DNA from: a virus
Length of the DNA stretch: 37,630 nucleotides
Virus record (IMG/VR): IMGVR_UViG_3300043449_002015
Location: 1 to 37,630 of that record
Reading direction: 5' to 3' (one strand)
Both the position numbers and the translations under genes were made by a program. Below are positions 19,752 to 37,630 of the stretch, one piece after another. Position 1 is the first letter of the stretch. Every line of letters starts with the position of its first letter. The notes beneath the pieces are model-generated. The model was given only the letters and a program-made list of their open reading frames with translations, was not told where the DNA came from and did not search any database.

Positions 19752-20507
19752 ATGATTAAAGATCAATTGCGTCAAAAAAATCTAGAAGGACGTTATTTAT
19801 GGAACAAATTTTTAAAAGAATCAGAGGATAAAAAACAGAATGAATTCACAAGTTTAACGGTATTTTTGAAGGAAAATTTAGATTCACCAAGAATAAGTAA
19901 CATACTTAGAAAACCGTGGGTTCAAGAATATAAAGATTTTTTAACAAAACAAGATGGATTTTCACCAATAAGAACAAAACAAGGGGTTGAAACGGAGGTA
20001 ACTTTTGATTTTCTAGCGGCAATACTTGGTGATTTGAACAAGTTTTTTGAGTGTTTTTATTCAATGTGGCTAATGAGCAATTACCACCCAGGCTGTGATA
20101 AAGAATGTATTGATTTTCTAGAAAATGAAAAAAAATCAGATTTTACAGCAGCTATGCTTGGGCATTTTTCTGTAAATGCTAAGGAATATTCAGAACTTGA
20201 AAAGAAAAGAAGAAAAGAAAAAAAAGAAAAAATATACGTAATTAAGTTAAGAAATGAACTTTACAAAATAGGAATAACAAAAAATATAAGTAAAAGGTTT
20301 AAGTCAATAAAGACAACAAACCCGGAGGCAGAATTAATCACTGTCTATGACGGATGCCGAAACCAAGAAAACAAAATACACAAAAGTACATGCAAAAAAA
20401 GAATAGGTAAATCTGAGGTTTATAAATTCAAATCGGATAAAGAAGCAATTCTTTTTGTAGAGAAGTATGTAGAACCTAAGATGATCAGCTTCAAGTCAGA
20501 GATCTAG
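19752..20507 (+). CDS. T5orf172/MUG113-type GIY-YIG-like nuclease domain protein
   Basis: 251 residues, with GGAG before ATG. The C-terminal third (about 160-245) has the divergent GIY-YIG core: IYVIKL...LYKIGITKNISKRFKSIK, then EAELITVYDG, E..IHK and F...EA..FVEKYV. The N-terminal 150 residues are helical and unknown. The gene is clearly AT-richer and Lys-richer than its neighbours, has its own promoter and is bounded by a hairpin at 20517-20542, all signs of a recently acquired cargo gene. It may be a homing-type or defence/counter-defence nuclease. Confidence 0.75.
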   Translation: MIKDQLRQKNLEGRYLWNKFLKESEDKKQNEFTSLTVFLKENLDSPRISNILRKPWVQEYKDFLTKQDGFSPIRTKQGVETEVTFDFLAAILGDLNKFFECFYSMWLMSNYHPGCDKECIDFLENEKKSDFTAAMLGHFSVNAKEYSELEKKRRKEKKEKIYVIKLRNELYKIGITKNISKRFKSIKTTNPEAELITVYDGCRNQENKIHKSTCKKRIGKSEVYKFKSDKEAILFVEKYVEPKMISFKSEI

Positions 20508-20516
20508 AACTTAACC

Positions 20517-20542
20517 GACCCTGGCGGAGTAAAACCAGGGTC
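20517..20542. terminator. Perfect 8-bp hairpin between convergent genes
   Basis: GACCCTGG (20517-20524), a 10-base loop, then CCAGGGTC (20535-20542). It lies between the + strand nuclease gene and the - strand small-gene operon. No U-tract follows on either strand, so it may act only as a weak or factor-dependent terminator. The core CCCTGG/CCAGGG recurs in the inverted repeat at 28193-28222. Confidence 0.45.
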
Positions 20543-20588
20543 AGCCACACCAACTTCATAGGAGCATGGTTATTTTAACATTGGTAGT

Positions 20589-20732
20589 TTAGATAAACAA
20601 ACTATCTTCTTCGTCATCATCATCATCCTCGCAGTCATCGTCATCATCAACACAGGTTAGGCAGTAGGTAGGTTCGTTATCCTGTTCATACACACGGTTA
20701 AATTCCAGTTGTAAAACATCCAGTGGAAACAT
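20589..20732 (-). CDS. 47-residue very acidic protein (possible DNA mimic)
   Basis: ATG 20732 lies one base after the stop of the upstream 55-codon gene, with TGAGG as ribosome site. The N-terminus is MFPLDVLQLEFNRVYEQ; a Cys pair (YCLTC, about 23-27) is followed by a run of Asp/Glu (DDDDDCEDDDDDEED) and the end SLFI. The strongly acidic stretch is typical of small phage proteins that mimic DNA, but no family is recognised. Confidence 0.6.
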   Translation of the reverse strand: MFPLDVLQLEFNRVYEQDNEPTYCLTCVDDDDDCEDDDDDEEDSLFI

Positions 20733-20733
20733 A

Positions 20734-20901
20734 TTAGGCCTCATCTGAGAAAATTGAAGTTAAATCCATGTGAGCATCGTAGTCGGTCTCGTCGTAGTAC
20801 CACCTGGCAGCGCCGCGAGTGTGTTTAGCAAGTATTTCTTTACCTCTGCTGTCGGTTCCTACTGCGGTCTCAATGATGCTTTGCAAATCAAACTCTTCCA
20901 T
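20734..20901 (-). CDS. 55-residue protein of unknown function
   Basis: A short - strand gene with AGGAG seven bases before ATG. It begins MEEFDLQSIIETAVGTDSRG and is acidic at its end (TSIFSDEA); the middle is Arg/Trp/Tyr-rich (RGAARWYYDETDYD). It lies between the 86-codon and 47-codon genes of the same leftward operon. The motif GGCGCTGCCA falls inside it (20805-20814, - strand). Confidence 0.6.
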   Translation of the reverse strand: MEEFDLQSIIETAVGTDSRGKEILAKHTRGAARWYYDETDYDAHMDLTSIFSDEA

Positions 20902-20928
20902 TTTTTAACTCCTATTGGCAACGCCGTG

Positions 20929-21189
20929 TTATATGTATTTTGGTTTCAACTTTTCTAATACAGTGGCAAATCTAACCTGCCAGTTGCTCATGATTTTTAT
21001 TCGCGCATAACCAATGGAGTACATTTTGAAATCTCCCTCCTGGTATGGGTCCCTGTGAGTTAAACGTTGGTAATGTTCGTTAGGCAACACGAGAGACGTT
21101 GTGCCATAGTGAGGGCAAAAATCCCATGCCAAAGTCGCCAAGTCCTTGTTGCGACACTGTTTCTCGTCCAGGGTTACACAAATTGACAT
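20929..21189 (-). CDS. Unknown small protein, first gene of leftward accessory operon
   Basis: 86 residues with a strong AAGGAG site seven bases before ATG. It contains several Cys/His (CVTLDEKQC, DFCPHYG), which might bind a metal, and a beta-like N-terminus. A motif copy TGGCAACGCC lies in the 27-bp gap after its stop. A TTGACA sits 55 bases upstream on the same strand, but I see no -10 at good spacing. Confidence 0.55.
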   Translation of the reverse strand: MSICVTLDEKQCRNKDLATLAWDFCPHYGTTSLVLPNEHYQRLTHRDPYQEGDFKMYSIGYARIKIMSNWQVRFATVLEKLKPKYI

Positions 21190-21200
21190 TTGAAAACTCC

Positions 21201-21229
21201 TTGCTAATTCTTACTAACAATGGTAGTAT
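21201..21229 (+). promoter_or_regulatory. Sigma70-type promoter for rightward small-gene array
   Basis: TTGCTA (21201-21206), 17-bp spacer, TAGTAT (21224-21229), leading 42 bases later to ATG 21271. The -35 box is the same TTGCTA as at 19697. It is placed divergently from the - strand operon and would serve the genes from 21271 on. Confidence 0.5.
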
Positions 21230-21270
21230 AAGTTTAAACTTTTTGTCAAGTGTTCGAAACAAAGGTTAGC

Positions 21271-21495
21271 ATGTATAAACGAAAAACACATGTTCCATAC
21301 TGGGAAGAGCCTGAAGAACCATCGATAAAAGATTGGGCCCTCTATGTACGCATACCACATGACAACCTAAAAAAGGGAACGGTTATAAGTTGGCATTCTA
21401 CTGAGAGAGGCGCCCGCATTGCGCGAGGAAAGAATATGAAATTAGGAATTCGCATCCGACAGGGGCGCGAGTGGGACGGTATAAACGTTGAATAA
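21271..21495 (+). CDS. Unknown small protein
   Basis: 74 residues from ATG 21271; an in-frame GTG at 21250 exists but is closer to the promoter and lacks a ribosome site, while AAGG lies seven bases before the ATG. Contains KGTVISWHSTERGARIARG and a basic end (GIRIRQGREWDGINVE), suggesting a small beta-rich nucleic-acid or protein-binding fold. Family not recognised. Confidence 0.5.
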   Translation: MYKRKTHVPYWEEPEEPSIKDWALYVRIPHDNLKKGTVISWHSTERGARIARGKNMKLGIRIRQGREWDGINVE

Positions 21496-21517
21496 CATAA
21501 CAATATAGGGGAAAGGT

Positions 21518-21811
21518 ATGACTAATAATTGGTTTAAACGTAGAGCAATGGAAGCACTTAAAGAAGCAATCAAGGAAGAACTCGACGAGGTTATGGTTAC
21601 CAAAGTAATCCAAGAGCAGTTCCACAGTGAGTTCAAGGATTTCCTAGCAGAGTGGAACTATAGACTAGGTCTATTCGAGGCAGGGTTAACAGACACGCAG
21701 AGGAAACTAGATCAATTGCGCGAGCGCTTCGAACCAGGATTCCGACAGCAGAGAAGAAACCTTAACAACTTTATGACTACCCTTGAACCTGATAACGATT
21801 TGTACGGGTGA
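21518..21811 (+). CDS. Small coiled-coil protein of unknown function
   Basis: 97 residues, ribosome site GGGGAAAGG. Two helices with heptad spacing (ALKEAIKEELDEVMVTKVIQEQF and LFEAGLTDTQRKLDQLRERFEPGFRQQRR). Charge is balanced; no enzyme motif. Its stop codon lies within the left arm of the hairpin that follows. Confidence 0.5.
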   Translation: MTNNWFKRRAMEALKEAIKEELDEVMVTKVIQEQFHSEFKDFLAEWNYRLGLFEAGLTDTQRKLDQLRERFEPGFRQQRRNLNNFMTTLEPDNDLYG

Positions 21812-21845
21812 GGATGTCAGTGGAGAAGATCCGCGGAGCATCCTC
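21810..21845. other. 7-bp inverted repeat at gene end
   Basis: GAGGATG (21810-21816) and CATCCTC (21839-21845) enclose 22 bases. It begins in the stop codon of the upstream gene and is followed by CAAAAAC, not a U-tract, so it is a hairpin of unknown role, possibly an mRNA stabiliser or attenuator. Confidence 0.4.
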
Positions 21846-21901
21846 CAAAAACAGGTAGGGTTGCTAGCGTCGACTTTTAACTTGCAGGAAAAATATAGTT
21901 C

Positions 21902-21918
21902 ATAGGCACAATGCCTAT
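21902..21918. promoter_or_regulatory. Palindromic site upstream of 21950 gene
   Basis: ATAGGCA-CAA-TGCCTAT, a perfect 7-bp palindrome with a 3-base centre, 31 bases before the next start codon. Its symmetry and short centre suit a protein-binding operator or a tight RNA hairpin. Confidence 0.4.
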
Positions 21919-21949
21919 ATAGAAATTTTAACATAAGGGCGCTGCCAGA

Positions 21950-22288
21950 ATGCAAAAGGACGTAATCTACGCACTGGGTGCAATTAAATCCCTACCAGAC
22001 GATAAACAGGTTTTGTTTAAAGTCGCTAACGACATAGGGTGGTTTAGCGCAAAGCACGCATTGAATCTATTGGTTATCGAGCTTGAGACCTCAACAGTGG
22101 GGCACTACGAGATAGCTATGTGGTCTCAGCCTGGCATCGATTTTAATCTGAAATTTGACTCTGTCGTCGCCACTGGGTTGGGACTGCCTAATAATTATAC
22201 AGATGTCTGGTGGTGTATAAAATTTGCACACTTCGAGCAGGAGGTCTACGCAATGAGTAAGGACCTGTATATATTTTTCACCCTGTAG
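21950..22288 (+). CDS. Unknown early protein
   Basis: 112 residues; AAGGGCG 10-14 bases upstream overlaps a copy of GGCGCTGCCA (21938-21947). The N-terminus is helical (VIYALGAIKSLPDDKQVLFKV), the C-terminal half is aromatic and beta-like (YTDVWWCIKFAHFEQEVYAM, LYIFFTL). No recognisable motif. It ends at TAGCAACGCC, a variant of the repeated early-region motif. Confidence 0.5.
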   Translation: MQKDVIYALGAIKSLPDDKQVLFKVANDIGWFSAKHALNLLVIELETSTVGHYEIAMWSQPGIDFNLKFDSVVATGLGLPNNYTDVWWCIKFAHFEQEVYAMSKDLYIFFTL

Positions 22289-22305
22289 CAACGCCTGAGG
22301 TAACC

Positions 22306-22566
22306 ATGATTTGCTGTAAATGTTGTAAAGGACTAGAAATAGAACCTAACCCCAGGTTTATACACCTTGATTCTATATATAGCAAGGCACTCAATGGCAC
22401 CCTAGAGGTATCCGACGAGCTATTACATGGTGTCGTGACCCTGGATTGCTTCAAAGAAGTTGGCGCCAGCCTTCAGGAGATGAGCAGGGTATTTTCAAAA
22501 TACTTGGTTTACCTGCAACCAATGGAAATGAAAGCAGCATTTAGATTTCACTTATACATATCATGA
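22306..22566 (+). CDS. Unknown small protein with Cys-rich N-terminus
   Basis: 86 residues; start follows GAGGTAACC. The N-terminus MICCKCCKG has two Cys pairs two residues apart and a further Cys comes at about 46, so a small metal-binding site is possible. The remainder is helical. Family not recognised. Confidence 0.5.
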   Translation: MICCKCCKGLEIEPNPRFIHLDSIYSKALNGTLEVSDELLHGVVTLDCFKEVGASLQEMSRVFSKYLVYLQPMEMKAAFRFHLYIS

Positions 22567-22575
22567 GGGTAAAAA

Positions 22576-22758
22576 ATGACACAAGAAAGCAAGGGCGCTG
22601 CCAGAGTTTACATCGTAAAACACAGTAGGACCCACGAGATTTTTGGGTGCTTCACCAATATGCAGGCTGCGTTGCAATGTCAGAATGCTTGGCCCGACCG
22701 TGACAACCTAATAATTAGTGTCAGGGAATTACAAAATGAATACACAGAGGGGGCGTAG
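22576..22758 (+). CDS. Small array paralogue 1 (Y-I-V...A-A-L type)
   Basis: 60 residues. Core reads RVYIVKHSRTHEIFGCF, then a helix (NMQAALQCQNAWPDRD) and a final strand (NLIISVRELQNE). This beta-beta-helix-beta plan recurs in the genes at 22761, 22994, 24115, 24568 and 24824, so they look like diverged copies of one small family. A GGCGCTGCCA motif overlaps codons 7-10. The stop and next start form the GCGTAGCAATG junction. Function unknown; anti-host roles are common for such arrays. Confidence 0.55.
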   Translation: MTQESKGAARVYIVKHSRTHEIFGCFTNMQAALQCQNAWPDRDNLIISVRELQNEYTEGA

Positions 22759-22760
22759 CA

Positions 22761-22985
22761 ATGAAGATTTACATACTAATGTCAGAAGGTTGCCAATGTT
22801 GTTCATCAACATTCGGTTATTACCTAACCGAACAACAAGCTATTAAGGACAAGAATCAAATGATTAAGGATGGGTACCAGAATGCCAGTATAGAAACAGC
22901 GTACCCATGCGATTTGGACGACTGGTTAAAAATCCAAGAACCTACTTTGGTACACCACACGCCATACAAGAAGATATCACCATAG
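22761..22985 (+). CDS. Small array paralogue 2
   Basis: 74 residues starting two bases after the previous stop at GCGTAGCAATG with no Shine-Dalgarno, so translation is probably by reinitiation. MKIYILMSEG, a Cys cluster (CQCCSSTFGYY), a helix (TEQQAIKDKNQMIKDGY) and a last strand (NASIETAYPC) follow the array plan. Confidence 0.55.
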   Translation: MKIYILMSEGCQCCSSTFGYYLTEQQAIKDKNQMIKDGYQNASIETAYPCDLDDWLKIQEPTLVHHTPYKKISP

Positions 22986-22993
22986 GATAAATA

Positions 22994-23179
22994 ATGAAAT
23001 ACAAATATTACGTGTTACTAAAGGGAAATAATGAATATATTGCTACATTTTTTAATGTAAAACAACTTTATGAAGTAAAACAATACTTTGACGCTGGTGT
23101 ATACATACGGGAATTCGTAGTAAACGAGGAGGATATTATTGACATAGTATGCTCCTGCCGAGAAAAAAACTACGAATGA
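22994..23179 (+). CDS. Small array paralogue 3
   Basis: 61 residues, AGGATAA upstream. KYYVLLKGNNEYIATFF, a helix (VKQLYEVKQYFDAG) and a strand (VYIREFVVNEED) match the array plan; the end has two Cys (IVCSCREKN). An 87-bp gap with a promoter follows, so this closes the first transcription block. Confidence 0.55.
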   Translation: MKYKYYVLLKGNNEYIATFFNVKQLYEVKQYFDAGVYIREFVVNEEDIIDIVCSCREKNYE

Positions 23180-23207
23180 TCTATTCTTAGCAACTCAAGT
23201 AACATTC

Positions 23208-23236
23208 TTGACCTACCTAGAATAGTCTAGTATAAT
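23208..23236 (+). promoter_or_regulatory. Strong sigma70-type promoter inside small-gene array
   Basis: TTGACC (23208-23213), 17-bp spacer, perfect TATAAT (23231-23236). Transcription would start near 23243, giving a leader of only about 24 bases before ATG 23267 and without a clear Shine-Dalgarno. Confidence 0.75.
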
Positions 23237-23266
23237 TCTTACCACACAACATAAAGATGCATAGCA

Positions 23267-23500
23267 ATGGAAGAAGTATTTTGTTTAAGTTGGAAAACAG
23301 GCGGACTGTATCCATTAACGACAATAAAATTATTCGAGACAGAGAAAATGCTCAACCAATACATCGAAAAATTGGTTGAAAGTTTAAAGAAAGATTACCT
23401 AGATGAAGGAATCGAATGCACAATTGAAGAAATTAAACAGGGTTTTGCAGAATTTATGGACATGAAAGTTGAAAAGATAAAAATACACCGTGAGGCATAG
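23267..23500 (+). CDS. Small acidic early protein (possible array member)
   Basis: 77 residues, starting at GCATAGCAATGG. MEEVFCLSWKTGGLYPLTTIKLFETEK then two helices (LNQYIEKLVESLKKDYL; TIEEIKQGFAEFMD) and a strand (VEKIKIHREA). The strand-helix-strand order resembles the array family with an enlarged helix. It is the first gene after the 23208 promoter. Function unknown. Confidence 0.55.
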   Translation: MEEVFCLSWKTGGLYPLTTIKLFETEKMLNQYIEKLVESLKKDYLDEGIECTIEEIKQGFAEFMDMKVEKIKIHREA

Positions 23501-23502
23501 CA

Positions 23503-23754
23503 ATGGCTCGTAAACGTTCAGAAACCAAGGTTACAGGTTGGGTGAAGTTACAGGACTACGTAGTAGATAAGCTTAAGTCAGAACACACTAGACAGAAGGA
23601 AATAGTTCTAGATCTTAAGCACCAGTATGAACATGCTCTTAAACATCTTTATTGTGACACATATCACATAGTTATGGATCGTAACGAAAGAACTTCAGAC
23701 AAGTGTGCGACAGCAAAGGCTAAGGCAGCAGTAACAACGTTTCTTAAGGGGTGA
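23503..23754 (+). CDS. Unknown basic helical protein
   Basis: 83 residues; start two bases after the previous stop at GCATAGCAATGG, again without a Shine-Dalgarno. Basic N-terminus (MARKRSETKVTGWVKLQDYVV) and a long helix with His residues (KEIVLDLKHQYEHALKHLYCDTYHIV). Not an array-type fold. No known motif. Confidence 0.5.
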   Translation: MARKRSETKVTGWVKLQDYVVDKLKSEHTRQKEIVLDLKHQYEHALKHLYCDTYHIVMDRNERTSDKCATAKAKAAVTTFLKG

Positions 23755-23756
23755 CC

Positions 23757-23930
23757 GTGAGCATCATTGTGTGCGTAGCTTTGGCATGCTTATCTATGGT
23801 TGTTGTGTGGGTACTAGCTGAATTCGTAATGTGGTGTGCAAGAAACGATCAAGGGTGGATACTTGTTGTTTTAGGAATAATTTTATTTACGATTGTTTTT
23901 TACATTGGATGCTTGGCGTTGCCAAAGTAA
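23757..23930 (+). CDS. 57-residue two-helix membrane protein
   Basis: GTG start with AAGGGG five bases upstream (an in-frame GTG at 23751 is less well placed). Two membrane helices: residues 3-26 (IIVCVALACLSMVVVWVLAEFV) and 34-55 (WILVVLGIILFTIVFYIGCL), joined by a short polar loop (ARNDQG). Its size and topology suit a class II holin or a superinfection/anti-host membrane protein; the early-region location favours the latter. The motif GGCGTTGCCA forms its last codons. Confidence 0.6.
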   Translation: MSIIVCVALACLSMVVVWVLAEFVMWCARNDQGWILVVLGIILFTIVFYIGCLALPK

Positions 23931-23953
23931 CTAAGTTATTGGAAGGTTGATAT

Positions 23954-24118
23954 ATGGATATTTTCTACGTAAAACCTGAATGGGGAAGAATTTTAGACAA
24001 ATGCAAATGGCAGAAATTAGATGACAGGGTGATAGATGTAACAGCGGAAGAGGTAAAAGAAGAATACGAACAGTTAAAAATTACAGAAGTAACTACGTTA
24101 GTGGAAGGGTTAATATGA
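23954..24118 (+). CDS. 54-residue acidic protein
   Basis: GGAAGG lies 8-10 bases before ATG. MDIFYVKPEWGRILDKCKWQ then an acidic helix (AEEVKEEYEQLK) and a last strand. It resembles a short array protein. The stop overlaps the next ATG (ATGA), coupling it to the frameshift gene. Confidence 0.5.
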   Translation: MDIFYVKPEWGRILDKCKWQKLDDRVIDVTAEEVKEEYEQLKITEVTTLVEGLI

Positions 24119-24275
24119 AGGTTTATATACTTAATTATTATGATTACGGAATTGAACACAATTTATATTTAAAACATTTGGTAAAGTTTTGGAAAAAATA
24201 GAAGAACTATTTGAAGAGGAAAAAGGAACAGTATCAGCAACATACAAGATTGAAATATCATCATTGGAAGATTAA
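24115..24275 (+). CDS. Small array paralogue read through a -1 frameshift (or frameshifted pseudogene)
   Basis: The zero frame gives 28 residues, MKVYILNYYDYGIEHNLYLK then HLVKFWKK and TAG at 24199. The -1 frame continues from the same point as TFGKVLEKIEELFEEEK...YKIEISSLED to TAA at 24273-24275. The joined 53-residue product fits the array plan (strand, strand, helix, strand); neither frame alone does. The switch coincides exactly with T-TTA-AAA (24168-24174), a slippery heptamer of X-XXY-YYZ form. So a programmed -1 shift is plausible; a lost A in the AAAA run, by mutation or sequencing error, is the alternative. Confidence 0.5.
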
Positions 24276-24296
24276 TAGCGTAGCAATGGGCGTTGC

Positions 24297-24313
24297 CAAC
24301 GTTAGTAAAGGAT
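24297..24313 (+). repeat. 17-bp direct repeat, copy 1 (ribosome-site cassette)
   Basis: CAACGTTAGTAAAGGAT, identical to 24547-24563. Each copy ends in the AAAGGA ribosome site of the following gene (24322 and 24568). Copy 1 follows a GCGTAGCAATG junction and a GGCGTTGCCA motif, with a 9-codon mini-frame (MGVANVSKG) running through it. Confidence 0.8.
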
Positions 24314-24321
24314 AGATAAGC

Positions 24322-24555
24322 ATGGGTGATCTATTAAGTTCTGTCGCTATTTTGTTGTTACTACCATTTATTCTACTTATATTTTTGGGTAACTGGATAT
24401 ACACAAGATTCTTCGAGGAAAAAATAGAAGGAATACCAAAGAGAGAATTTGAAGAAATAAAGAGAGATAAAGAAAGAATTGAAAAATATGAGAACAGAAA
24501 ACATATGTATTTGTATACAGGGTTACACAGAAATGATTGTCATGGACAACGTTAG
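24322..24555 (+). CDS. Single-pass membrane protein, charged C-terminal tail
   Basis: 77 residues, AAAGGA upstream. Residues 5-24 (LSSVAILLLLPFILLIFLGN) form one membrane helix, followed by Trp/Tyr/Arg at the interface and a highly charged helix (EEIKRDKERIEKYENRK). It probably sits in the inner membrane with the tail in the cytoplasm. Role unknown; could modify the host envelope or exclude other phages. Confidence 0.55.
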   Translation: MGDLLSSVAILLLLPFILLIFLGNWIYTRFFEEKIEGIPKREFEEIKRDKERIEKYENRKHMYLYTGLHRNDCHGQR

Positions 24556-24563
24556 TAAAGGAT
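24547..24563 (+). repeat. 17-bp direct repeat, copy 2
   Basis: CAACGTTAGTAAAGGAT, identical to 24297-24313; here it spans the last codons of the membrane protein gene and supplies the ribosome site for the gene at 24568. Suggests the gene in between was duplicated or inserted by recombination at the repeat. Confidence 0.8.
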
Positions 24564-24567
24564 GGGT

Positions 24568-24804
24568 ATGTCACCAAAAATTTACATAGTGGTAGACACC
24601 CTTATGGAAGCAGGGGTTCTAATAGATGAGAATGACAGAAGTATTTTTGACCCGGTTGTGATACAAGGTGTTTTTTTAGAAAGAGAAAAGGCCGAAGATT
24701 ATATAGAACATAGAGAAAGCTCAGAAATTAGGGAATATGAGGTAAAAGGATTCACAGAATGGATACTAAAGAACGTAGATAAATTAGTAATTCCTAACAC
24801 TTAG
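24568..24804 (+). CDS. Small array paralogue 5
   Basis: 78 residues from ATG 24568; the in-frame ATG at 24562 overlaps the AAAGGA ribosome site, so the second is preferred. KIYIVVDTLMEAG, a longer loop (IDENDRSIFDP), a strand (VVIQGVF), the helix LEREKAEDYIEHRES and a strand (REYEVKGF) follow the array plan with an insertion. Acidic overall. Confidence 0.55.
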   Translation: MSPKIYIVVDTLMEAGVLIDENDRSIFDPVVIQGVFLEREKAEDYIEHRESSEIREYEVKGFTEWILKNVDKLVIPNT

Positions 24805-24823
24805 TAGCAAGGGGCATTAAAAA

Positions 24824-25051
24824 TTGGAATTCTATATATACATTGTGACAGAGTTAGACGGAAGATTTGGTTCTTTTTATTCAAAAAAATCTGCTTTTGA
24901 ATACTACAGAAAATTAAAAGACAAAGGTTATAAGGACGTTATGATAAGGACGGTATCTGTAAATCAAGATATGGCTGATTCGTGGGAACCAAAAAACTGT
25001 TGCAGATGCGGAGCTGAGGGAACTAATAGCCTAATTAATACCACTGCGTAG
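24824..25051 (+). CDS. Small array paralogue 6, with CxC-type tail
   Basis: 75 residues from a TTG start, with AAGGGG nine bases upstream and no better codon. FYIYIVTELDGRFGSFY, helix (KKSAFEYYRKLKDKGY), strand (KDVMIRTVSV) match paralogues 1-3 closely in spacing. A C-terminal CCRCGAEG segment may bind metal. The stop falls in GCGTAGCAA. Confidence 0.55.
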   Translation: MEFYIYIVTELDGRFGSFYSKKSAFEYYRKLKDKGYKDVMIRTVSVNQDMADSWEPKNCCRCGAEGTNSLINTTA

Positions 25052-25064
25052 CAAAGGATTATAG

Positions 25065-25409
25065 ATGAGTTTAAAGGGTTGGCCATTTATTCCTGATGAC
25101 ATTGTAGAACGGGAAATTGAACTGGATCGAGATATTGAAGAACAGGACATTGCAGATGCGGCGAATAGGATTCAGAAATGGGGACCATTCAAAGAAATGT
25201 ATGTGATCACAAGTGCAAGAACAATACACAGAATTCAGGAAAAATTAGGACCAAGACCAGATAATCATGAATTATTAATAGTAACACAACACGGAAACGT
25301 AAGGATTGATCACCACAGAATGGTCCGAGAAGACTATGCATACTTGATAGGAATGGGAGATAACAAGAATCAGATTATCCACATTCACTTCTTGCCTACC
25401 ACTGCATAG
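25065..25409 (+). CDS. Unknown early protein
   Basis: 114 residues, AAAGGATTATAG before ATG. Acidic N-terminus (DDIVEREIELDRDIEEQDIADAA), then a mixed alpha/beta region (EMYVITSARTIHRIQEKLG, HELLIVTQHGNVRIDHHR) and a His-rich end (QIIHIHFLPTTA). Three His clusters are notable but no known metal-enzyme signature is complete. The stop falls in GCATAGCAC. Confidence 0.5.
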   Translation: MSLKGWPFIPDDIVEREIELDRDIEEQDIADAANRIQKWGPFKEMYVITSARTIHRIQEKLGPRPDNHELLIVTQHGNVRIDHHRMVREDYAYLIGMGDNKNQIIHIHFLPTTA

Positions 25410-25429
25410 CACCGTACATTCTCACAGGG

Positions 25430-25459
25430 TTGACTTCAAAAGTTTCGCATTGCTATAAT
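25430..25459 (+). promoter_or_regulatory. Strong sigma70-type promoter upstream of replication block
   Basis: TTGACT (25430-25435), 18-bp spacer, extended -10 TGCTATAAT with perfect TATAAT at 25454-25459. Transcription would start near 25466, at the first base of the hairpin that opens the leader. It would drive the genes at 25523, 25742 and the SF3 helicase at 26346. Confidence 0.75.
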
Positions 25460-25465
25460 GAAAAA

Positions 25466-25493
25466 ACCCCCGGCGTATCCACCCACCGAGGGT
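25466..25493. other. Leader hairpin 1
   Basis: ACCCCCGG (25466-25473) and CCGAGGGT (25486-25493) pair around a 12-base loop. As + strand RNA there is one C-A mismatch; read on the - strand the stem is fully paired (one U-G) and is followed by six Us, like a terminator for leftward transcription. On the + strand it would form the 5' end of the mRNA from the 25430 promoter. Confidence 0.5.
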
Positions 25494-25501
25494 CACATGA
25501 C

Positions 25502-25527
25502 CATGCAATAGAGGAGTATCGCATGAA
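25502..25527 (+). repeat. Duplicated leader/start cassette, copy 1
   Basis: CATGCAATAGAGGAGTATCG followed by CATGAA, nearly repeated at 25720-25746 as CATGCAATAGAAAGGATATCG then CATGAA; the match goes on into the first codons (TATTATCTCA in both). Each copy follows a hairpin. It carries the ribosome site and start codon, so the two genes share translation signals. Confidence 0.75.
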
Positions 25528-25672
25528 CGACGCTATTATCTCACCAGAGACAGAAAAAATCAATCTAGTAGTAACAATGGACACCACGTGGGAAGAGATT
25601 GAAGAACACGTAGGTGAAGAGAATATGGAATTGGTTAGTACAGCCATTGAATTATTCAGTGGCTTGTTCTAA
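25523..25672 (+). CDS. 49-residue acidic protein
   Basis: Starts at ATG 25523 with GAGGAG nine bases upstream; a longer in-frame reading from 25430 would begin inside the promoter. MNDAIISPETEKINLVVTM, then an acidic helix (TWEEIEEHVGEENMELVSTA). Its first codons and leader are closely matched by the next gene (see the repeated leader), so both begin as copies of one cassette. Function unknown. Confidence 0.55.
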   Translation: MNDAIISPETEKINLVVTMDTTWEEIEEHVGEENMELVSTAIELFSGLF

Positions 25673-25681
25673 AATAGAAAA

Positions 25682-25709
25682 ACCCGATGGTGGGGGTCAC
25701 CAATCGGGT
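25682..25709. other. Leader hairpin 2
   Basis: ACCCGATGGTG (25682-25692) pairs with CACCAATCGGGT (25698-25709) with one bulged base. A-rich runs flank both sides (GAAAAACCC before, CAAAAAAC after), so on the - strand it is followed by five Us. It sits between the 49-codon gene and the next. Confidence 0.55.
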
Positions 25710-25719
25710 CAAAAAACAT

Positions 25720-25746
25720 CATGCAATAGAAAGGATATCGCATGAA
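25720..25746 (+). repeat. Duplicated leader/start cassette, copy 2
   Basis: Second copy of the cassette described at 25502, placed between hairpin 2 and the 179-codon gene. It differs by a few bases in the ribosome-site segment. Confidence 0.75.
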
Positions 25747-26281
25747 TCGACTTATTATCTCAATTACCCCAGAAGATGTCAACATCCACATGGACCGCAA
25801 TCTCATACCAATCATGGGGAAACCCAGAGATTGGTCTGCTAATCTTTTAAAAAAGAAAGATTGGTGGGAGAGAACAAGAATTCAGCATGGAGTAAATTTC
25901 TTGGAATCAAACTTTAGGACTATTTATAGTTTTGAAGGAGATAGCATTTTTTCAGATAGATCATTAACTTACGAGATATATTTACCAGGAAGTCCACACG
26001 CATATTTTGAACCTAACGCATACAGTAGACTTTGGCAGCATTATCTTGCTGGAAATATGGCAAAGGAAAAAGAACTACAAGAAAGAGTTACCGAGACCCT
26101 GAAGGAATGGAGATTCAGAAACGATATCAATAAGCCAAAAAAGCCTTTTATAACTTCAACATCTAAGTTTTTTAAATTACCAAAAGAAGAAAGAGAGGAA
26201 ATAGAGAGAAGGATAAAAAACCACAAGGATGTAGCAGAAAAAATATACAAAGTATTCGGTGGAAGTCGTTGGAATCATTAA
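25742..26281 (+). CDS. Unknown protein upstream of SF3 helicase
   Basis: 179 residues, AAAGGA before ATG. The N-terminus copies that of the previous gene (MNRLIISIT vs MNDAIISP). Middle region contains KDWWERTRIQHGVNFLESNF and YEIYLPGSPHAYFEPNAYSRLWQHY; the last 60 residues are basic and helical (FKLPKEEREEIERRIKNHKDVAEKIYKVFGG). No catalytic motif is recognised. AT-rich, like the helicase gene with which it is probably co-transcribed; it may be a replication accessory protein. Confidence 0.5.
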   Translation: MNRLIISITPEDVNIHMDRNLIPIMGKPRDWSANLLKKKDWWERTRIQHGVNFLESNFRTIYSFEGDSIFSDRSLTYEIYLPGSPHAYFEPNAYSRLWQHYLAGNMAKEKELQERVTETLKEWRFRNDINKPKKPFITSTSKFFKLPKEEREEIERRIKNHKDVAEKIYKVFGGSRWNH

Positions 26282-26289
26282 AATAAAAA

Positions 26290-26315
26290 CCCCGGTGAGG
26301 TGGTTCTCATCGGGG
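26290..26315. other. Leader hairpin 3
   Basis: CCCCGGTGAG (26290-26299), a 6-base loop, CTCATCGGGG (26306-26315); ten pairs with one G-U on the + strand. It is preceded by AAATAAAAA and sits between the 179-codon gene and the helicase start at 26346. Third member of the hairpin-before-gene series. Confidence 0.55.
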
Positions 26316-26345
26316 CTGATAATTTTCAAAAAAGGCAAGTATATT

Positions 26346-27743
26346 ATGGCTAGAAATCTCTCAGTTGTCAATGGTTCAGATAGTTTTGACCCGTCAGATA
26401 AATCAGTAGCAGATATTGAAATAGACCTAGGAGACTGGCTCTGCAAGAAACAAGTTATAGGAATGCCAGAACTGGATGGGTCTTTAAAAGTTCTTAGAAA
26501 TAAAGCTGGTTATAGAATATTTCACGTAGATGACCATAATGTTTGCGAAGAGATAGAGATATCTCAGGTAAGAAAGCTTCTTGAAAACTCCGTAAGAAAT
26601 AGTGCATATAGAAGGAAAATAAGCTTCAAAACTATATCTCTGGTAGTTAATAGATGGTTAGACTGCAACGCTGAACAAATGGAATACGAGCCAGTTCCCC
26701 AAACTCTTCACGATTCAACAAGATATGCATTTTCAAGATTAGAAGAGGAAATTAAACCAATAGATCTTCAACAGCTGGAAGAACACTGCCCACAATACCA
26801 CGCAATGATGGTGCACATGGAAAATAACGAATGCTGGGCAGCCATGAGATGGGATGCATATGTAGGATCTTACGGAAGAAAACAAGCCATATATTTGCAT
26901 GGTGAAAGCGGAGTGGGAAAGACCACACTGTGTGACGCATTTGGTGAAATGTTAGGAGGAGAAAAGGCATACGTTAGCGTAAGTACAAAATATCTAGATG
27001 GTCCATTTGCTATGGAATTATTAGTAGGTAAAGCTTTAGCAGCAATAACAGAGGTAAGCGAGTCTTATCTAAAGACCAAAGACTTTCTAATACTTACTGG
27101 TGAACAAAACGCAGCTATTAACCCAAAGGGCAGACCGGGTTACATGGCTAAAATTGGAGCGCAAATAATACTAACTAGTAACGACGAATTAGAAATACCT
27201 GATTTGCCAGAAATAAAGAACCGTATTATCACATGCTATTTAAAGAAATATGACCGGGAAGATCTACCGGACGAAGTAATTAAAGGAATATTTAAAGATA
27301 AAAAGAAATATATTTTGGGTTATTCAAGATGGTGTTGGGAAAAATTCCAAAGAGAAAACAAAGGGAAGATCGTAGCCGACAAGACATCGTTGGATGTAGC
27401 AGTTAAAAAACATGAAGAGAGATACCAGGATGTTTTCGATGTTTACTTTAAGTACTCTCCAGAAGGGACAGAGTGCGTAAGATGTGCAGATGCGCACGCC
27501 GCAATAAAGAAGACGATTAAATCTCGTAGAGAATTGGGAGCATTTAAAAAATGGTTAGAGAAGGAATACAAAATATTAGCTCGTAAACCAGAGATAAACG
27601 GAAAAGATGTGAGGGCATACAGAAACATGGCTTGGTCTAACGAATCAATTTATGTGGATGGAAAAAGAATGGAGACACTAAAAATAGCAAAAACGGCATC
27701 AGAAGAAATTCAAGATTGGAATGTGATACTCTCAGACAAATAA
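26346..27743 (+). CDS. SF3 (D5/P4-like) replicative helicase
   Basis: 465 residues from ATG 26346 with AAAAGG about 10 bases upstream; a longer in-frame reading from 26259 would span the hairpin and overlap the previous gene. Walker A HGESGVGKTT (G186-T193), Walker B-like ALAAITEV (E236), and SF3 motif C/sensor AQIILTSND (272-280, Asn 279) are clear. A winged-helix-like C-terminal region follows. SF3 helicases form hexamers at viral and plasmid origins and usually work with a primase; here the AEP primase at 18481 is the likely partner. No primase domain is present in this chain. The stop codon lies at the edge of the candidate origin. Confidence 0.85.
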   Translation: MARNLSVVNGSDSFDPSDKSVADIEIDLGDWLCKKQVIGMPELDGSLKVLRNKAGYRIFHVDDHNVCEEIEISQVRKLLENSVRNSAYRRKISFKTISLVVNRWLDCNAEQMEYEPVPQTLHDSTRYAFSRLEEEIKPIDLQQLEEHCPQYHAMMVHMENNECWAAMRWDAYVGSYGRKQAIYLHGESGVGKTTLCDAFGEMLGGEKAYVSVSTKYLDGPFAMELLVGKALAAITEVSESYLKTKDFLILTGEQNAAINPKGRPGYMAKIGAQIILTSNDELEIPDLPEIKNRIITCYLKKYDREDLPDEVIKGIFKDKKKYILGYSRWCWEKFQRENKGKIVADKTSLDVAVKKHEERYQDVFDVYFKYSPEGTECVRCADAHAAIKKTIKSRRELGAFKKWLEKEYKILARKPEINGKDVRAYRNMAWSNESIYVDGKRMETLKIAKTASEEIQDWNVILSDK

Positions 27744-28028
27744 AACTTGTCCCCCCTCCATAACCTGTCTCCGACCAAATCCTTGCAGCACTAAACAAGC
27801 GACACAAAGACAACTCCGACAGGTTTTTTCAACTTTTCTCTCCATATGTATATGCACCTAAAATAGTATTCCTTATATATAATATAAAAATACTTGTCTT
27901 TTATGTCTTCTTGTCGCTTCTCTTGGTAGAGTAAGTTTTCATAGCAGACAACTTTGAAAATGAACTTGTCGGACTTGTCTCCAGGTGACAACCTACCCAT
28001 GTTGCCCTGACTTTTACTCTCAGCTGTC
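27735..28028. other. Candidate replication origin with ACTTGTC-type iterons and AT-rich core
   Basis: At least eleven copies of a 7-bp box related to ACTTGTC: + strand at 27745, 27763 (ACCTGTC), 27892, 27909 (TCTTGTC), 27964, 27973, 28022 (AGCTGTC); - strand at 27809, 27818, 27947 and 27987. Between the clusters, 27840-27890 is nearly all A/T (a possible unwinding element). Arms AAGCGACA / TGTCGCTT (27797-27804 and 27912-27919) and AAAGACAA / TTGTCTTT (27806-27813, 27895-27902) flank this core as inverted repeats. No gene is present. Position next to the SF3 helicase gene fits an origin. The protein that binds is not known. Confidence 0.6.
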
Positions 28029-29110: not shown

Positions 29111-29139
29111 TTGACTAATCCTGCAAACTATTGTATATT
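29111..29139 (+). promoter_or_regulatory. Sigma70-type promoter for membrane protein operon
   Basis: TTGACT (29111-29116), 17-bp spacer, TATATT (29134-29139). Since the start site would be near 29146, the coding region must begin after it, which decides the GTG start at 29167. Confidence 0.7.
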
Positions 29140-29166
29140 AGATTTAAATTTGCAGGAGAAATAGTT

Positions 29167-29949
29167 GTGTCCGCCACATTGTTTGACATCAAAAGACCAG
29201 TGGAAAAGAAAACCAGAAAGCAGCGCAGCGACAAGGGGAAACCTCGCAAGAGGGTTGAGCTTCACACAGAAAAAGCAGTGGGTTCGCCACCTGAGAGCAT
29301 CCCTAGAGCAATTGAGATTGCTACAGTGGCCCCGAGAGCTGGAGGAGATCCACTTCGGGGATGGGATTTTATCCGAGAGAGAGTTTGCGAACCTGGTTTC
29401 GTTTTACCAGCGTTTGCTTCTCTTTGTACTTCCCTTTACGTCGGATACCAGGGATATATTTATCTTTTGCAAACGAATTCAGCAGAAAGCGCGCTATCAA
29501 CAGCCCTGGTTGCAGAAATTGTTATGGTGGTTGCAGCTTGCCTTTTTGTATATTCCCGAGGGTTTGCTAGGGCCCTCGTCCTTGCTCTCATGCTCGCAAT
29601 GGTCGGAGCGGGGGCAGTCTACATGCACTCCGCGGTTGACTCAGGGCAGCGAGATACAGAAGAACAAATCAAGAAATCTCGTGATAGACGTGACGAGCTT
29701 AAGCGAACCCTAGACTTGCGTCGTAAGGGTGTAGAGGCGCTCCCTGAGACAATGGTAACTAAACGTGAGGAGGCATTGCGTGGGGTTGCTGAGTACGAAG
29801 CAAAACTGGCTCAGGCAGACCTTGAGATTTCCTCAGCTGGTACTGGAAGAGTAGGGGTTACCTATAACCTGATGGTGCGGTTATGCGCGATGATCCTAAC
29901 CCTGGTTCTAACGCACGTAGCATGTTCCAAGTTGGTGAACAAACCATAA
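29167..29949 (+). CDS. Polytopic membrane protein with cytoplasmic coiled coil
   Basis: 260 residues from GTG 29167, with AGGAG nine bases upstream; a longer in-frame reading from TTG 29131 would cover the promoter's -10. The first 75 residues are basic and polar. Hydrophobic helices appear at about 78-100, 109-130, 134-153 and 234-256; residues 160-223 form a charged helix (EEQIKKSRDRRDELKRTLDLRRKG). This resembles small ion-channel or sensor proteins in outline only. Family unknown; host takeover, superinfection exclusion or lysis timing are possibilities. Confidence 0.6.
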   Translation: MSATLFDIKRPVEKKTRKQRSDKGKPRKRVELHTEKAVGSPPESIPRAIEIATVAPRAGGDPLRGWDFIRERVCEPGFVLPAFASLCTSLYVGYQGYIYLLQTNSAESALSTALVAEIVMVVAACLFVYSRGFARALVLALMLAMVGAGAVYMHSAVDSGQRDTEEQIKKSRDRRDELKRTLDLRRKGVEALPETMVTKREEALRGVAEYEAKLAQADLEISSAGTGRVGVTYNLMVRLCAMILTLVLTHVACSKLVNKP

Positions 29950-36329: not shown

Positions 36330-37630
36330 ATGGCTGCTTTTGCAGACGCAACACAAGTAAATATATTTAAAACAAGATATGCCGACCAAATTGCTGATTT
36401 AATCCCTCGTGAAATGCATTTATCCAGGGATATTCCGTTTAGTCAAACCGCACGTGTCGGTGCGAACTATGTAGCAGCGGCTATATTGTCAGCTGAGACA
36501 GGTTGGACATTGGCAGATGGTTTGAGTGCAGCAGTACTTAACTCACCTAGATCTGGTACAGTTAAGCAAGCTACCATCAATGCTGCAACCACGACACTAT
36601 CTTCAGTGGTTCCTTGGTCAAGCTTCTCTCGTTCTTCTGGTGGAGACGAGGTTGCTTTCATCGAGGCTACTAAGTACATCGTAAAGAACAACCTTAAGTC
36701 CCATGAGAGATTGCAAGAAACTCTACGTATCTATGCAAACTCTTATGATCAGCTTGGTTACGTGTCTTACTATACTGGTGTATATGACAACGTTTCTTGG
36801 ACCAATGGTAGTGGAACAATAAATGGGATTACTTTTTCAGGTGGAATTAGCACAACCCCTGTTAGTGGGACGCAATATGCTGTTTTGTTTGAACCTGGTC
36901 AGTTTGCAGCTGGTCACTGGGTAGGTAATGACGGAAACCCAGGGTGTGCGGTTTATTTGATCAATAACGTTGGTTCCGTAGTAGCAAGCGGATCTCTTGT
37001 TAAAGTTTATACAGATTATCACTACATTGTGGTTGATTTCGGTGGTTCAGTACCTCCATCAGCGACCGCAGAATATTCACCTTTACAAATTCCAGCGTCA
37101 GGAACCCTGCGTGTTTGTTTTCAAGGTATGGAATTTAATTCATCAATTGCAGGAACAACTACATCAAGTGCTTATGTTGGTATCCAACGTATCATGGGTA
37201 CTCAAACCGGTAGTTTGTTTGGCATCACAGTAGATAACTACAGCTTGTGGCAATCTTCAGTGTTTAACTGTAATGGCCAATACCTCAGCTTTGACATGAT
37301 CCAAAAGGGTCTTGGTCAGATGTATAACCATAGCGGGGTCGAAGGTGATATCAAGATATATCTTAACCCTAATGCATGGGCAAGACTTGCAGTAGATCAA
37401 GCATCACTAAGAATGTACGACTCTAGCTACAAAGTAACCAGAGCAGAAAACGGCTTCAAAGAGCTCCGTTACGAATCTCAAACAGGTTCTGCATCTTTGG
37501 TTAGTCACCGATGCGTAAAAGAGGGAGAGGCATTTGGTCTTTTCTTAAGCAGCTGGGTCCGAGGTGGTAGCGCAGAAATTTCGATGACGGTCCCTGGTTC
37601 TAATGTTCCGATCATCTACCCTCTAGAGTC
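36330..37630 (+). CDS. Major capsid protein, N-terminal part (continues at 1-233)
   Basis: The gene starts at ATG 36330 with AAGGGTG nine bases upstream, runs off the window and is completed at 1-233, giving 468 residues in all. It begins MAAFADATQVNIFKTRYADQ; EATKYIVKNNLKSHERLQETLRIYA (residues about 110-135; shown in part: EATKYIVKNN, ERLQETLRIYA) is the spine helix of an HK97-type coat. Residues about 150-275 are a Gly/Ser/Thr-rich beta region, longer than in compact coats and probably an inserted surface domain. Then YNHSGVEGDIKIYLNPNAWARL and the P-domain region follow. Scaffold and decoration genes upstream support the call. Confidence 0.85.
   Translation, partial: MAAFADATQVNIFKTRYADQIADLIPREMHLSRDIPFSQTARVGANYVAAAILSAETGWTLADGLSAAVLNSPRSGTVKQATINAATTTLSSVVPWSSFSRSSGGDEVAFIEATKYIVKNNLKSHERLQETLRIYANSYDQLGYVSYYTGVYDNVSWTNGSGTINGITFSGGISTTPVSGTQYAVLFEPGQFAAGHWVGNDGNPGCAVYLINNVGSVVASGSLVKVYTDYHYIVVDFGGSVPPSATAEYSPLQIPASGTLRVCFQGMEFNSSIAGTTTSSAYVGIQRIMGTQTGSLFGITVDNYSLWQSSVFNCNGQYLSFDMIQKGLGQMYNHSGVEGDIKIYLNPNAWARLAVDQASLRMYDSSYKVTRAENGFKELRYESQTGSASLVSHRCVKEGEAFGLFLSSWVRGGSAEISMTVPGSNVPIIYPLE
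37504..37630. repeat. Terminal direct repeat, copy 2
   Basis: Identical to bases 1-127; marks the closing point of the circular genome. Confidence 0.95.

Follow-up and report, generated by a model that had tools for sequence, protein, structure and literature searches.

The split gene and its surroundings

The window, that is, the whole stretch of DNA that was analysed (37,630 bases, the full length of the virus record), carries a 127-nt direct terminal repeat at 1-127 and 37504-37630 and, given this repeat, is probably a complete tailed-phage genome. Matches to PHROGs were obtained for the portal (phrog_156), the large terminase (phrog_2), a RecT-like annealing protein and primase/helicase-like proteins, and the closest named record found was the Silvanigrella aquatica phage CP017838.1, with identities of about 33% in the terminase and about 34% in the portal. 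A run of small plus-strand genes at about 21.2-26.3 kb, in an A+T-rich early region, contains a gene that is split between two reading frames (Table 1). The initial annotation had located it correctly: the 28-codon zero frame, the -1 frame reaching the TAA at 24273-24275, the in-phase TTTAAAA and the 53-aa product of the joined frames were all recovered, as was the ATGA overlap with the preceding gene, whose TGA (24116-24118) is overlapped by the ATG at 24115-24117, and the gene fits between repeated leaders.

Four small genes, those starting at 23954, 24115, 24322 and 24562, each have a copy of the same leader upstream, with ACGTTAGTAAAGGAT or a variant of it as core. Since this leader repeat is common to the neighbours and the copy before ATG 24115 forms an anti-SD duplex of -6.0 kcal/mol, a start at this ATG is plausible. 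The repeated leader may be the mark of duplicated or exchanged gene cassettes.

Table 1. Features of the split gene and of the leaders around it
Feature	Position	Strand	Remarks
Zero frame, N-terminal part of the gene	24115..24201	+	28 codons plus TAG 24199-24201
-1 frame, C-terminal part of the gene	24156..24275	+	open 24156-24272, TAA 24273-24275; no ATG
Overlap of both open frames	24156..24201	+	46 nt; must hold the frame change
T_TTA_AAA heptamer	24168..24174	+	-1 slippery phase; frequency controls run
Leader repeat with Shine-Dalgarno-like GGAAGGG	24087..24108	+	91% identity to 23925-23946 ahead of the previous gene; embedded in that gene's 3' end
Leader copies	23912-23946, 24087-24108, 24286-24318, 24536-24568		one within the terminal part of the gene before it

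Two further kinds of repeated element were observed in the region. A second junction, GC(G/A)TAGCAA or close variants, recurs at 22753, 23259, 23495, 24278, 25046 and 25397; the gene before it frequently terminates at this TAG, and an ATG frequently comes next, the ATG at 24286 opening a reading frame of 9 codons only. Intergenic G+C-rich hairpins are located at 25460-25530, 25680-25745 and 26283-26325, in two cases with a common segment (GCAATAGA..GTATCGCATGAA-like) between the hairpin and a start, and these units resemble mobile intergenic cassettes.

Coding signal in the two frames

A codon model was trained on the neighbouring early genes, the focal gene not being among them. With a score of 0.33 per codon, the -1 frame (24175-24272) exceeded 98.8% of 166 in-frame windows of 33 codons, and none of the off-frame windows (n = 0/332, stops dropped) scored as high; beyond the heptamer, the coding character of this frame is clear and the signal is above chance. 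The zero frame (24115-24174) scored 0.08, the highest of its three frames, yet inside the off-frame range. Because the -1 frame is coding and has no ATG, one gene read in two frames is the natural reading, and a single gene of about 53 codons, present now or recently, is supported. The initial annotation had proposed a programmed shift at this site; its single gene of about 53 codons across both frames is borne out by the codon statistics and by the fit between the leaders, whereas the programming is not. Readthrough of the TAG by stop-codon reassignment was rejected as well, as the zero frame at 24202-24272 scores -0.01 versus 0.35 for the -1 frame, and the neighbouring genes terminate at the TAG of the repeated junction.

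The two frames had also been described as joining exactly at the heptamer. The 46-nt overlap admits 15 possible joints, each leaving an open product of 53 residues, and codon usage assigns about 79% of the weight to joints no later than 24174, with only 7% for a joint at 24174 itself. An exact join at the heptamer is not what these data show.

The neighbouring small genes had been regarded as paralogues with a plan shared by the joined product. An all-against-all comparison of the neighbours and the joined product yielded no significant similarity, and only two neighbours, 22761 and 24562, weakly matched phrog_3002 (E 0.003 and 0.005). The neighbour 24562-24801 also matched DUF7336 (PF24024) with an E of 3e-4 and 21 bits, under the curated cut-off of 25 bits. 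A weak likeness to these small phage proteins is thus seen in 24562 and 22761, whereas the joined product matches neither profile (phrog_3002 at E up to 10, PF24024 at E up to 1). The fold predicted with moderate confidence from single sequence for neighbour 24824 is strand-strand-helix-strand followed by a short helix (mean pLDDT 63.9), and that of neighbour 24562, also from single sequence, was too poor for use (54.6). The argument from paralogy is an impression.

The slippery heptamer and the search for relatives

In-phase X_XXY_YYZ heptamers were counted in the early genes (n = 32 in 2105 codons) and in the most A+T-rich of them (n = 16 in 880 codons), and three of the 32 are T_TTA_AAA heptamers within early genes whose frame is intact (19811, 25846 and 26483). 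An in silico control was performed by deleting each base in turn, deletions without a resulting overlap being dropped before counting. An in-phase heptamer was left in the overlap by 17% of the deletions in the A+T-rich genes (n = 384/2219) and by 19% of those in all early genes (n = 1069/5601); X_XXA_AAR was left by 6% (n = 139/2219) and 9% (n = 516/5601), and T_TTA_AAA itself by 3% (n = 67/2219) and 2% (n = 125/5601), respectively. A sampled variant of this control with uniform deletions gave 14-16%. The heptamer in the overlap is not rarer than chance and is unremarkable for an A+T-rich region. Because roughly every sixth one-base deletion leaves an in-phase heptamer in the overlap in the A+T-rich genes of this phage, the presence of such a heptamer alone does not indicate programming.

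Two of the features of a programmed -1 frameshift were found at the locus, namely a slippery heptamer in phase within the overlap of two frames and a coding downstream frame; a motif beyond chance expectation and a stimulator, either a downstream stem-loop or an upstream SD-like element, were not. The 80 nt downstream of the heptamer folded at -6.8 kcal/mol (z -0.29), with 72 of 200 shuffles folding as well, and the 161-nt context gave z +0.72; among the pseudoknot-free structures covered by this folding, no stimulatory one was found. Upstream of the heptamer, the best SD-like pairing (-3.3 kcal/mol) was equalled by 39% of 660 background windows.

The consulted part of PMC4066793 gives V_VV.A_AA.R, H_HH.U_UU.Y, U_UU.A_AA.G and two others as the most efficient motifs in E. 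coli, a list from which U_UU.A_AA.A is absent, and reports about 0.3% shifting without stimulators in E. coli for the three best V_VV.A_AA.G heptamers. The same part describes the Y_YY.A_AA.R motifs as exceptions, shifting above the prediction from mixed composition, and mentions that some insertion sequences employ weak motifs; both points mildly favour the site.

Relatives of the split gene were sought in IMG/VR with a tblastn-confirmed pattern search (33 stretches, 0 relatives) and by tblastn against 50,697 phage records, where none was detected at E up to 10. A DNA search with 20500-28000 against the phage records was negative, as was a search for relatives of the phage by a single terminase. 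Portal and terminase alignments with CP017838.1 yielded two distant loci (L003 and L005) and one close fragment (L004) of 4847 bases, with a terminase 72% identical, which does not contain the region of the split gene; the search with alignment A4 returned L004 again and nothing else. Twenty stretches carried the terminase motif pattern, and only L011, from the same contig as L004, has relatives of the window by tblastn, whereas the single contig retrieved with the helicase Walker A pattern was discarded, having little in common past the motif. The protein at 25742-26278 had no relative in IMG/VR, and the bacterial and archaeal genomes contained none with the longer terminase pattern and none with the helicase. 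Against the phage records, neighbour 24562 had no match and neighbour 24824 one weak match. The absence of relatives in the searched records is weak evidence, as records very near the window are possibly not among them.

Explanations for the frame break

The codon statistics and the heptamer controls point to a real early-operon gene of about 53 codons in a tailed phage, which has probably lost its frame by a one-base indel somewhere in 24156-24201. Both the indel as cause and its presence in the phage itself, not just in the record, are inferred. Such an indel would fall where short runs of A and of T abound, initiation at ATG 24115 would then lead mainly to a truncated peptide of 28 residues, and a recent event or weak constraint on the gene would explain why the downstream half still looks coding. 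A coding -1 frame without an ATG is what is expected after an indel. Two observations speak against it: the heptamer is placed within the overlap and is correctly phased, with a chance of only 6-9% for the better class X_XXA_AAR and 2-3% for the exact heptamer, and the second half has not decayed, a point equally explained by a programmed shift. The loss of one base had been offered from the start as the alternative to programming, and it is the likelier of the two, given a heptamer at chance frequency and no stimulator found.

A sequencing or assembly error, with the phage gene intact at about 53 codons and the record off by one base, is an unlikely explanation. It agrees with the undamaged coding signal around the break and with the A runs (four and six nt) and the T run (four nt) that the overlap contains, but a check of 48 other genes revealed no second clear break, and in the 17 early genes inspected, 17 A or T homopolymers of six or seven nt keep the frame. 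Because homopolymer errors would be expected there first, a real indel is preferred to an artefact. In one of the 48 genes (29131-29949), a different frame outscored the gene's own towards the 3' end (29866-29949); a second break was not called there, as this other frame closes about 40 nt past the stop of that gene. In the gene at 23954-24118, its own frame scores best to the end, through the leader.

A programmed -1 frameshift at T_TTA_AAA, which would yield the 28-aa peptide together with small amounts of the 53-aa fusion, is improbable. The in-phase heptamer inside the overlap, the AAA codon in the A site and the coding second half without its own ATG are all consistent with it; against these stand a heptamer no rarer than chance, also in phase in the three intact early genes, no stimulator detected on either side and no relative found that could show a conserved break. 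In addition, U_UU.A_AA.A lies outside the best E. coli class as given in the consulted part of PMC4066793, where even the best three heptamers reach only about 0.3% without stimulators, and on these grounds the programmed shift suggested in the initial annotation is not supported. It is quite doubtful, then, that a tailed phage here obtains products of 28 and about 53 residues from one tiny early gene by means of a weak T_TTA_AAA and no classical stimulators. Were the shift programmed, it would be an unusual case of recoding in a phage gene outside the tail genes and transposases, and a hint that a pair of products can come from accessory genes as short as those of phages.

Least credible is a reading with no slippage at all, in which the 28-aa peptide is accompanied by a separate 28-aa product from TTG 24189, coupled to termination at 24201: this TTG, the one common start codon seen in the -1 frame, does lie 5' of the zero-frame stop, but its SD is weak (-2.8 kcal/mol, equalled by 52% of 660 background windows) and the -1 frame has a coding score upstream of it as well. 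Transcriptional slippage was set aside, the heptamer having a run of only four A, although the overlap has a six-A run too.

The locus can be compared with known systems of frame change or disruption. It resembles bacterial -1 frameshifting at X_XXZ_ZZN heptamers, as in the IS3/IS1 transposases covered by the consulted part of PMC4066793, in its in-phase heptamer, the AAA in the A site and the overlap of two frames. It differs from these systems in that no stimulator and no relative with a conserved break were found, in a motif at chance frequency and in being a small phage gene, neither a transposase nor a tail gene. The second comparison is with the singleton frame-disrupted prokaryotic genes of the GeneTack class. 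According to the consulted part of PMC3711429, unclustered frame breaks may be sequencing errors, recent indels or false positives due to adjacent genes, or else orphan genes with recoding, and orphan singleton breaks in prokaryotes are expected to be mostly overlaps, errors or indels. The split gene shares with this class, as described there, two coding frames, one shift and no relative sharing the break, and no distinguishing difference was seen in a comparison based on this one sequence.
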